Below, one piece after another: positions 13,108-57,030 of a stretch of DNA of 64,000 nucleotides (the first letter of the stretch is position 1; each line of letters begins with the position of its first letter). Where the stretch lies: the NCBI RefSeq assembly GCF_020531905.1, contig NZ_JAJAWG010000002.1, positions 310,001-374,000 on the forward strand, written 5' to 3'. Both the position numbers and the translations under genes were made by a program. The notes beneath the pieces were generated by a model, which did no database searches, was not told where the DNA came from, and saw nothing but the letters and a program-made list of their open reading frames with translations. This stretch comes from Deefgea salmonis (GTDB taxonomy: Bacteria; Pseudomonadota; Gammaproteobacteria; Burkholderiales; Chitinibacteraceae).

Positions 13108-13365
13108 TGGGGTTTGCTCAAGCACTTGTGATATAGCCTATCAACATCAAATCTGAACAAAGCCGATCTCTATGGGGTATTGCCGTGTGGGTCATGTTTT
13201 ATAGATATTACAGTGATATACCCATTTCTTTTACGATTCGGTTTTAAGCGCTTGGCACGGGCGTTGATTGCTAAGGGTAAGTCTGTAGCGGTTTGCCGTG
13301 AATCAATTTAAACCCTGTACCAAGTGTTGTAGATAGGGGAAGCTGGCTCGGGCTTGGCCCATTTT

Positions 13366-16500: not shown

Positions 16501-16576
16501 GCCGATGTAGCTCAGTTGGTAGAGCACCTGACTTGTAATCAGGGGGTCGCGAGTTCGATTCCTGCCGTCGGCACCA
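16501..16576 (+). tRNA. tRNA-Thr (anticodon TGT)
   Basis: A 76-base cloverleaf with encoded CCA: acceptor GCCGATG/CGTCGGC, D-loop AGCTCAGTTGGTAGAG, anticodon loop CTTGTAA with anticodon TGT, and T-arm with GTTCGATTC. Its 3' half is repeated at 41487-41533, so this gene is the attachment site of the integrated element. The present 3' end and the terminator behind it were supplied by the element. Confidence 0.97.
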
Positions 16577-55317: not shown

Positions 55318-55517
55318 CTTGGGCGCGACTTGGGTTTTGGCTGGGTTTTCTGGGGATAAATGGGTTTTATTACCATTTTAGGTGCGAGTGAGTTGGGCTT
55401 GAGTTGTGGTTTTTTCGTGCAAATTCAGTGTTTTTATTACCAATCAGCTTGGCATCGCGGTGTTGCCGACGTTGCGCTGGCTTGACAGCAATGATCGCTA
55501 GACTGGATGATGTCGCC

Positions 55518-55601
55518 ATGTTACTGAATTCGACCCCTACATATTTTTCTTATTATTATCTGGCTCGCCAACCGGCAGCCCGATGGGTCGCGTTCATTTA
55601 A
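55518..55601 (+). promoter_or_regulatory. Tyrosine-rich leader peptide upstream of an NSS transporter
   Basis: A 27-codon frame starts at ATG 55518 (GGATGA upstream) and contains TYFSYYYLA, four tyrosine codons (all TAT) within six positions, plus phenylalanine. It ends at 55601, just before a strong GC hairpin (55622-55647). This is the architecture of a transcription-attenuation leader sensing charged tRNA-Tyr. The downstream gene encodes a transporter of a family that includes tyrosine and tryptophan carriers. An in-frame ATG at 55491 is possible. Region 55319-55517 shows nothing else. Confidence 0.6.
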
Positions 55602-55621
55602 ATTACACCAAATGAATGATC

Positions 55622-55647
55622 CAAGGCCGCCGTAATGGGCGGCCTTG
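55622..55647 (+). terminator. GC-rich hairpin after the leader peptide (candidate attenuator)
   Basis: CAAGGCCGCC and GGCGGCCTTG form a perfect 10-bp stem with a six-base loop. The following sequence TTGCATTGG is only mildly T-rich, so termination may be partial or depend on another factor. Confidence 0.55.
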
Positions 55648-55713
55648 TTGCATTGGTGCCGCCCCAAAACGTTTGTCTGGATCTGGATTGTTGGTTTACG
55701 ACAAAGGATCATG

Positions 55714-57030
55714 ATGACAACTCGTTCGACTTGGGGCTCTAAGCTGGGTTTTATTTTGGCGGCCGCTGGCTCGGCCATTGGCTTGGGCGCGATTTGGAAA
55801 TTCCCCTATGTCACCGCGATGAATGGCGGTGGCGTGTTTATTTTATTATTCCTGTTGTTTAGTTTTACCCTCGGCTTGGCGCAGATGGTCGTCGAGTTCA
55901 CGCTGGGCCGCAGCGCGCAAACCGGGCCGGTGGGCATGTTTGGCCAATTGGCGGGTAAAGCTTGGCCGCTGATTGGCTTGATGGGGATTTTTGCCGGCTT
56001 TGTTTTATATAGTTTTTACAGTGTGATTGGCGGCTGGACTATTGGGTATCTGGTACTAGCGCTTGATGGCAGTGTTGTTACCGGTAATACCCAAGTATTA
56101 AAGTCTATCTTTACTGGCTTTGTAGCGCACAGCTATTGGCCGATTTTGGCGCACGCCGCTTTTGTTTTAGCCACGCTGGGTATTGTGATTGGCGGGGTAG
56201 AAAAAGGCATTGAGCGCGCCAGTAAGTTATTGATGCCGGCGCTGTTGCTGCTGATGTTGATCTTAATTGCTCGGGTGTTAACCTTGCCCGGGGCGTGGGA
56301 TGGGGTGAAGCTGTTTTTTACGCCGGATTTTTCTAAGCTCACGCCGACGATGGCGATGGATGCTTTGGGTTTGGCGTTTTTCTCTTTGTCTTTGGGTACG
56401 GGCGGCATGATCGCGTATGGCTCTTACCTTAAGCAGCAAACGCCGGTGTTGCATTCGGCGATGTGGGTGGTGGGTTTATCGTGCGCGGTGGCGATTTTGG
56501 CCGGTTTGATGATTTTTCCGGCGCTGCATGTATTTGGGCTCGATCCGGCGGCGGGGCCGGGTTTAACCTTTATGACCATGCCGGTGGTGTTTGCCAGCTT
56601 GCCCTTGGGCCAGTTGTGGGCGATTGCTTTTTTTGCTTTATTGACGCTGGCGGCACTGACGTCATCGGTTTCGATGCTCGAATTGATCGCAACGCTGTTT
56701 TTGGATGAATTTAAATTACCGCGTCGGCCAGTGATTTTGCTGTTGTCGCTGGTGGTATTTTTGTGTGGTATTCCAGCCTCTTTGTCGTTTGGCCCATGGG
56801 CTGATGTGACTGCGTGGGGCAAAAATATTTTTGAACTGATGGATTACAGCGTGGCCAATGTCATGATGCCGATTGGTGGGATTGCCGTGGCGCTGTTTGC
56901 TGGCTGGCGAGTTTGGCCGCATGTGGCGCAGCATTGTGGTTTAGCAGGCGGGGCATTATGGGGCTTAAAGTGGAGTTGCCGCGTGCTCGCGCCGGTGTCG
57001 ATTGGCGTGTTATTACTCAAGAATTTATAA
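55714..57030 (+). CDS. Sodium-dependent amino-acid transporter, NSS/SNF family
   Basis: This 438-residue inner-membrane protein belongs to the LeuT/SNF family of Na+-coupled transporters, with about 11 helices. The first helix has GSAIGLGAIWKFPYVTAMNGG, the canonical unwound sodium/substrate site, followed by FTLGLAQMVVEFTLGR; SLGTGGMIAYGSY corresponds to helix 6. Bacterial members carry tyrosine, tryptophan or other amino acids. The leader upstream points to an aromatic substrate. ATG at 55714 is spaced six bases from AAAGG; ATG 55711 is also possible. Confidence 0.9.
   Translation: MTTRSTWGSKLGFILAAAGSAIGLGAIWKFPYVTAMNGGGVFILLFLLFSFTLGLAQMVVEFTLGRSAQTGPVGMFGQLAGKAWPLIGLMGIFAGFVLYSFYSVIGGWTIGYLVLALDGSVVTGNTQVLKSIFTGFVAHSYWPILAHAAFVLATLGIVIGGVEKGIERASKLLMPALLLLMLILIARVLTLPGAWDGVKLFFTPDFSKLTPTMAMDALGLAFFSLSLGTGGMIAYGSYLKQQTPVLHSAMWVVGLSCAVAILAGLMIFPALHVFGLDPAAGPGLTFMTMPVVFASLPLGQLWAIAFFALLTLAALTSSVSMLELIATLFLDEFKLPRRPVILLLSLVVFLCGIPASLSFGPWADVTAWGKNIFELMDYSVANVMMPIGGIAVALFAGWRVWPHVAQHCGLAGGALWGLKWSCRVLAPVSIGVLLLKNL

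Follow-up and report, generated by a model that had tools for sequence, protein, structure and literature searches.

A putative tyrosine-codon attenuator in front of an MhsT-like transporter gene in Deefgea and its relatives

Introduction

Why should a gene for a sodium-dependent amino-acid transporter be preceded by a very short reading frame crowded with tyrosine codons and by a GC-rich hairpin? The locus that raises this question lies in a window of Deefgea DNA, by which we mean the whole 64-kb stretch that was analysed; the leader, its RNA elements and the transporter gene are all on the + strand. A preliminary description had interpreted the arrangement as possible attenuation, and had held that a leader without conservation, the lack of an alternative fold or a transcription start downstream of the leader would speak against this. 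None of the three is what the sequence holds and the interpretation is supported in silico; as judged from the DNA, the locus is very probably a transcription attenuator in which translating ribosomes sense the supply of charged tRNA-Tyr, and its target would be a sodium-coupled, MhsT-like importer that most likely takes up tyrosine.

The leader and its presumed control codons

The leader peptide ORF, MLLNSTPTYFSYYYLARQPAARWVAFI, runs from 55518 to 55601, with 27 codons from ATG to TAA, and is kept in relatives; the Tyr-rich ORF with TYFSYYY reported earlier in front of a hairpin and a transporter is thus confirmed. Its presumed control codons (55542-55559) specify Tyr-Phe-Ser-Tyr-Tyr-Tyr, with TAT at 55542, 55551, 55554 and 55557; the earlier wording, in which the four TAT codons form a row that a Phe and a Ser interrupt, is correct only if it is read as Y-F-S-Y-Y-Y. 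As one Phe codon stands amid the Tyr codons of this leader, some response to Phe is possible.

An ORF of this kind, defined as one starting with ATG, having 12-40 codons and including a stretch of six codons of which four or more are Tyr, occurs once in the 64-kb window when both strands are considered. Among 100 dinucleotide shuffles of the window the mean number of such Tyr-rich ORFs was 0.03, and in none of the 100 was one followed by a hairpin. Elsewhere in the window a 17-codon ORF, MFYRYYSDIPISFTIRF (13194-13247, +), has a small Tyr cluster and no hairpin 3' of it, at a frequency that is as expected by chance.

Promoter and predicted leaderless start

A sigma-70 promoter is predicted at 55482-55511, with a -35 box TTGACA (55482-55487), an 18-nt spacer and a -10 box GATGAT (55506-55511), and the leader ATG starts 6 nt behind this -10 box. 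The same order of TTGAC(A/G/T), 16-18 nt, a -10 box, 6-10 nt and an ATG is found at 20 of 20 Tyr and Trp leaders, near-copies included. When a -35 box with at least five of six matches was looked for together with a -10 box and an ATG 6-10 nt downstream, it was also found at 8 of 11 further leaders, where one -35 box reads TAGACA; the three that lack it, of which two are Phe leaders and the third a Trp leader, all have a poorer -10 box. As a background, the same combination occurs at 14 of the window's 2153 ATGs.

The spacing between promoter and ATG would place the start of transcription on, or within ~3 nt of, the AUG. A start at the AUG would mean that the leader is translated without a Shine-Dalgarno sequence, and the leader is therefore probably leaderless. 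Another ATG in the same frame, at 55491, falls between the two promoter boxes and is for that reason probably unused. As for a start downstream of the leader, sequence prediction places the best promoter-like site upstream of it.

Predicted terminator and alternative RNA folds

Segments 3 and 4 form the predicted terminator hairpin (55622-55654), the stem of which is the 10-bp GC hairpin noted previously before the transporter; it is indeed present, as CAAGGCCGCC-GTAATG-GGCGGCCTTG at 55622-55647. Behind the GGCGGCC arm comes the tail UUGUUGCAUU, a U-tract that starts inside the end of the stem and is weak in Deefgea (UUGUUGC), and the hairpin is absent from the listing of a strict terminator scan of the window that asked for at least five T in eight. 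The GGCCGCC/GGCGGCC stem is present in all 15 orthologues with readable upstream DNA, and the U-tract in these is UUUUUG in seven and broken in eight, including that of the window. The U-tract is the weakest point of the attenuator reading at this site, where efficient termination would have to be presumed. Since the hairpin ends ~60 nt before the start of the transporter gene, translational control is unlikely.

Three mutually exclusive pairings can be drawn for the leader RNA. Segment 1 (55558-55569) would pair with segment 2 when it is not covered by a ribosome, as indicated by predicted folds and pair counts; segment 2, GGCAGCC (55574-55580), is the antiterminator arm and pairs at six of seven positions with segment 3, GGCCGCC (55625-55631), which is also the 5' arm of the terminator. 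The predicted folds further contain an inner antiterminator (55585-55622), in which GGGU (55585-55588) pairs with AUCC (55619-55622) and a UUCAUUU/AAAUGAA stem is added. The RNA from 55518 to 55654 folds with a z of -4.9, a value that 0 of 200 shuffles equalled.

The pairings were followed in an alignment (A4) of 12 leaders, from which that of genome G459 was omitted because its spacing differs, though it was counted in the stall folds and duplex tests below. Row by row, 6-7 of the seven 2:3 pairs, all seven 3:4 pairs and 6-10 of the 11 1:2 pairs can be formed; 92% of the 2:3 cells are paired, against 17-52% when the partner is slid by 1-3 columns. The alternative fold that the preliminary description had asked for thus exists, segment 2 pairing with segment 3 in 12 of 12 rows, but the covariation it had proposed as a check is not significant: as segment 3 is almost invariant, the values observed in alignments A2 and A4 are equalled by those of many shuffles, and covariation is not used as support here. 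Changes in segment 2 mostly stay complementary by way of G-U pairs in A4, and the 1:2 columns 12/24 are U-A in four rows, C-G in five and unpaired in three. Single-sequence shuffles of the 2:3 duplex gave a negative z-score for each of 18 leaders, but p was <=0.05 for no more than six of them.

With a ribosome placed at the last Tyr codon and the RNA extended to segment 3, the 2:3 pairing is clearly predicted in 12 of 13 Tyr leaders; the exception is G459, where a stall at the last Tyr codon gives no strong antiterminator and the ribosome would have to stop at the YY pair that precedes it. Once segment 4 is added behind the stalled ribosome, 9 of the 13 favour the terminator at equilibrium, so that antitermination would have to be kinetic, occurring during RNA synthesis, and in known attenuators the choice is kinetic. 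With the ribosome at the stop codon the remaining RNA is predicted to fold into the terminator in 13 of 13.

Proposed mechanism

In attenuators of the trp type a leader carrying codons for the sensed amino acid is combined with alternative pairing of segments 1:2, 2:3 and 3:4 and with an intrinsic terminator. If the locus in Deefgea works in this way, transcription would start at or within ~3 nt of the leader AUG and ribosomes would load on the leaderless mRNA. When tyrosine is ample the ribosome would reach the stop, 13 codons beyond the last Tyr codon, and cover segment 2, upon which the 3:4 terminator would form and transcription would end before the transporter gene. When tyrosine is short the ribosome would stall on the Tyr codons and cover segment 1, leaving segments 2 and 3 to pair, so that no terminator would form and the transporter would be made. 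Were the leader not translated at all, 1:2 and 3:4 would both form and transcription would again end.

Conservation of the leader

The set of orthologues comprises 16 genomes found by protein-first searching at an identity of at least 69%, the window's own included; 7 of 61 genomes were found at 82% identity or more (again with the window's own), followed by 7 of 61 and 2 of 6 at 69-77%, the second and third searches covering matches listed at an E of 1e-160 or better. Upstream DNA could be read in 15 of the 16, that of genome G300 being cut 51 nt upstream of the gene, and in 15 of 15 there is a leader with 2-4 clustered Tyr codons followed by the same terminator stem. The leader is hence conserved in genomes of Deefgea, Iodobacter, Crenobacter, Chromobacterium and Laribacter type. 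Examples of the peptides are MMNLTRIYSYYYLACPLAARWVAFI (Iodobacter-type) and MDKTHRIAVTGYVYYPASSLVAGRLVLS (Crenobacter), others being MTNTHPAALCATYYYPVCDLAAGRIVCV, MMNASPTFALAYYGNYYPVRHPAAWRASFI, MTNRVDLPVANYSNYYYPVCRKALRRAAFVQ, MMMYMTRQPFHYYAAYPTRASRRIMCR and MLTCRPFAYATRYYRDCPEAVAAMTCS, together with MKNAQRAARFGQSYYPVLHLVAGEFARV, which has only two Tyr. These peptides are strongly divergent and TAT and TAC are interchanged, with the Tyr cluster retained even though the codons that flank it change. Across 13 Tyr leaders ranging in total length from 25 to 31 codons, the distance from the last Tyr codon to the stop is 13 codons in 11, the other two having 14 and 11.

A search of contigs gave seven loci of at least 75% identity, in genomes that partly overlap the orthologue set, and the leader is present in five of the five that have upstream DNA, two being cut. 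An RNA model of the element (R1) found it in 13 of 43 genomes of the family at an E of 1e-21 or better; 12 of these have full leaders, with the transporter downstream in eleven and the contig of G065 ending before it. Among the 13 are five Iodobacter-type genomes added by R1, in four of which the transporter lies directly downstream, the fifth being cut by a contig end. In the thirteenth genome, a Deefgea MAG (G005, locus L130, G005:C2:127138-127243), the leader start codon, the Tyr codons and the promoter are gone, and the transporter is present as a fragment only, with a 46-residue match. Leader and transporter appear to have decayed jointly in this genome, and a fault in the assembly of the MAG is possible.

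Across 399 genomes of the order R1 gave three weak matches outside the window's genome (L138-L140), none of them before an NSS gene, in a search with strict filters and nine candidates scored per genome, in which weak members can be lost. With no NSS gene behind them, these three were taken as chance and rejected as members.

The transporter

The gene behind the hairpin (55711-57030) encodes an NSS (SNF) sodium-dependent amino-acid transporter of 439 aa, with a Shine-Dalgarno-like AAAGGA at 55703-55708. Its earlier assignment to the LeuT family of NSS transporters is borne out by the Pfam SNF domain (PF00209), which scores 191 bits against a cut-off of 27 and extends over most of the protein. 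The closest solved relative is MhsT (PDB 4us3; 339 bits over residues 3-436), for which Trp, Tyr, Phe and also branched amino acids are given as substrates in PMC9350835. That the Deefgea protein most likely imports tyrosine is something we infer from these relationships and from those described below.

Paralogues with tryptophan and phenylalanine leaders

Beyond what the preliminary description had noted, paralogous transporters, some of them in tandem, carry leaders with Trp (WW/WWW) or Phe (VFFSFYF) in place of the Tyr cluster. In six genomes reached by protein-first searching the Trp leaders of paralogues are MTTHFLTLSCCSGNWWWRP, MNISMTAVFLAGWWRA, MTTNFMFLSITCTCGYWRA (one Trp), MNTNNLNHSATWWRI, MNTNTLNHSATWWRFY and MNTKQINSFAGWWRF; a seventh Trp-type copy, in G013, has the stem and a leader without Trp, and another, in G300, is cut. 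Two further RNA models, R2 and R3, gave 39 and 45 matches in 40 chosen genomes, and reading 32 of the loci added ten Trp leaders before NSS genes that enter the tree below, for example MNPMTVTFRSNWWRLF and MMKQIISLQTQYWWWRG, as well as two Phe leaders before NSS genes, MNRNAVFFSFYFMVRPTRAARTVAHN and MNRDAVFFAFSFMVRPLRAAGTVASF. Many of the weak loci among the 32 look like ordinary terminators or chance matches and were set aside. In the five Trp leaders for which it was counted, the last Trp codon is 2-3 codons from the stop, as against the 13 of the Tyr leaders, so the two types of leader differ in geometry.

All three kinds are found together in genome G454, where Tyr, Phe and Trp leaders, each with an NSS gene behind it, stand in a row within 3.2 kb of a single contig; the Tyr leader here has only two Tyr codons. 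Not every copy has a leader: in four Iodobacter genomes that were read none was seen for the second copy of the tandem, a protein grouping with those of Phe type, nor was one seen upstream of the second copy in G459, and none was found in the upstream DNA read at L149 and L151. The intergenic regions between the first and second NSS genes in four tandems of Iodobacter type (L168, L171, L174 and L177) are long and share a repeat-like, GC-rich sequence with no aromatic leader in it.

A tree was made of 62 transporters, with leader labels assigned from reading of the upstream DNA and the long-branch rows L003, L117 and L036 dropped. All 17 Tyr rows fall together in a single clade (99/96), the 15 Trp rows are in one clade of 17 (100/99) together with the degenerate copy and one copy cut upstream, and the two Phe rows lie within a five-row clade that adjoins the Tyr clade. 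Leader labels change six times on this tree, the minimum possible, compared with a mean of 33.9 for shuffled labels and 0 of 200 shuffles as low, a statistic that is inflated by near-identical rows and that includes Trp and Phe rows from RNA models, which are a biased sample. Leader type follows the transporter tree.

The proteins themselves differ in a corresponding manner. Nine positions are fixed differently in the Tyr and Trp clades, three of which are 228, 230 and 232, where the residues are L/T/G in the Tyr clade, V/A/C in the Trp clade and L/V/A in the Phe-type clade. These three residues align with LGMGA of MhsT, a stretch that we take to be the unwound part of TM6. According to PMC9350835, substrate recognition by MhsT involves the unwound part of TM6. 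The Thr of the Tyr clade as against the Val of the Phe-type clade is what would be expected if the pocket contacts a phenol hydroxyl in the former and has none to contact in the latter. On balance we favour the view that the NSS paralogues of these Neisseriales-type betaproteobacteria are separate carriers for Tyr, Phe and Trp, in which the codons of a leaderless attenuator have been swapped together with the substrate pocket.

NSS genes ~50% identical to the window's transporter were also seen in Aeromonas (L103, L108, L112, L098 and L077), preceded by short Phe-containing ORFs (for example MSLFTLSFGRFFNRFFAVA) together with a T-run behind a GC hairpin; these may possibly be Phe attenuators outside Neisseriales.

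Tryptophan leaders before trpS

Leaders with Trp codons are not confined to NSS genes. In the window's own genome (L248, G000:C23:66078-66151) and in one other (L245, G004:C5:111088-111160) the Trp leaders MNLSKHTLSVSYYWWRL and MNSIKHTLSVSYFWWRL, respectively, stand directly before trpS, with a terminator-like hairpin and T-run, a TTGACG promoter-like site upstream and a trpS product over the cut-off of TIGR00233; they are a probable Trp attenuator of tryptophanyl-tRNA synthetase. In three Iodobacter-type genomes (L132/L225 in G062, L134 in G035 and L136 in G066) a different leader precedes trpS together with a GCCGCC/GGCGGC hairpin. In G062, the one genome of the three for which the trpS family was checked, this leader reads MNATQASLFATTPAPSWCYRPYILLAA and has a single Trp.

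Alternative explanations

It could be that the attenuator is real and senses aromatic amino acids more broadly, Phe along with Tyr, in front of a general aromatic carrier. The Phe between the Tyr codons of the window's leader and the wide substrate range of MhsT would fit such a view, as would the Phe-Tyr-Phe leader of C. glutamicum, which responds to Phe and not to Tyr (PMC11802643). Most other types of the leader, however, have a Tyr cluster without Phe (SYYY, TYYYP, SYYP, YVYYP, NYYYP), and the occurrence of separate Phe and Trp leaders before separate paralogues suggests one amino acid per switch; we consider broad sensing unlikely.

That the leader is instead a small functional protein, or an arrest peptide of the antibiotic type, with a hairpin serving solely as an RNA stability element, would seem very improbable. 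Deefgea and most Iodobacter leaders share the C-terminal AARWVAFI unchanged, but the near-identical part of the DNA contains segment 2, and in other genomes this end of the peptide has become LVAGRLVLS or EAVAAMTCS with the pairing kept. In front of paralogues, moreover, Trp or Phe takes the place of the Tyr cluster.

A riboswitch, a T-box or a repressor site of the TyrR type in place of a translation-dependent switch is hardly credible either. Tyrosine control of transport in E. coli does work through TyrR, but the Tyr codons are explained by none of these, Rfam at its curated (gathering) thresholds matches nothing in the window except a tRNA (16501-16573), and no TyrR-box-like pattern with up to three mismatches to the consensus occurs between 54861 and 56002, the window as a whole having 34 matches where 39.9 are expected. 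An additional repressor might still act alongside the attenuator.

Least probable of all is a chance run of Tyr codons beside the terminator of an upstream transcript, the transporter having its own downstream promoter, an idea that gains a little from the weak U-tract of the window and is opposed by the 0 of 100 shuffles, the leader kept in 15 of 15 readable orthologues and the promoter-like site before the leader in 20 of 20. We retain an attenuator sensing charged tRNA-Tyr as our reading of the locus.

Comparison with known systems

Ribosome-mediated attenuation is already known as a class, and where proteobacteria adjust transcription to tyrosine, the regulator TyrR is the main agent known. 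The sensing of tyrosine, the transporter as a target and the set of Tyr, Phe and Trp leaders appear to be new within the literature searched. This consisted mostly of papers open without subscription, in which no Tyr-sensing attenuator was found. A comparative survey of attenuators was reportedly made by Vitreschak and colleagues in 2004. The available parts of PMC11802643, PMC13410324 and PMC8262941 contain no case of a Tyr-sensing attenuator, and the first of these names the trp, pheA and pheST attenuators.

Should the paralogues indeed be separate carriers, this would be the first case of an attenuator that senses Tyr and the first in which transporters under attenuation make up an aromatic trio, and the leader would read out the specificity of the transporter behind it. 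With Tyr, Phe and Trp leaders in front of NSS paralogues, specificity that is otherwise hard to predict in this family would become predictable from DNA alone, and the loci would amount to a natural experiment in which the codons of the regulator and the pocket of the transporter were changed together.

An attenuator for tyrosine would also fill a gap, as the one Tyr-codon leader that was found, that of C. glutamicum aroR, is reportedly unresponsive to tyrosine. The aroR leader resembles those described here in having a Tyr codon (Phe-Tyr-Phe) before a gene of the aromatic pathway, and differs in responding to Phe, with the availability of Tyr having no effect, and in having DAHP synthase as its target (PMC11802643). 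S. meliloti trpL, encoding peTrpL, provides a published case of a leader ATG at the 5' end of the transcript, as is predicted here (PMC7298713), and differs in its Trp codons, its biosynthetic target trpE(G) and its alphaproteobacterial host. MhsT, the nearest solved relative of the transporter, differs in its broad range of substrates (PMC9350835).

A further parallel lies with the enterobacterial attenuators trp, pheA, pheST and his, in which, as at the Deefgea locus, a leader ORF carries clustered codons for the sensed amino acid and segments pair as 1:2, 2:3 and 3:4. They have an intrinsic terminator before the first structural gene, in the position of the predicted one with a weak U-tract in Deefgea. 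Unlike these, the attenuator proposed here would sense Tyr, would control an NSS importer rather than biosynthesis or a synthetase, is predicted to be leaderless and has 13 codons from its last control codon to the stop.
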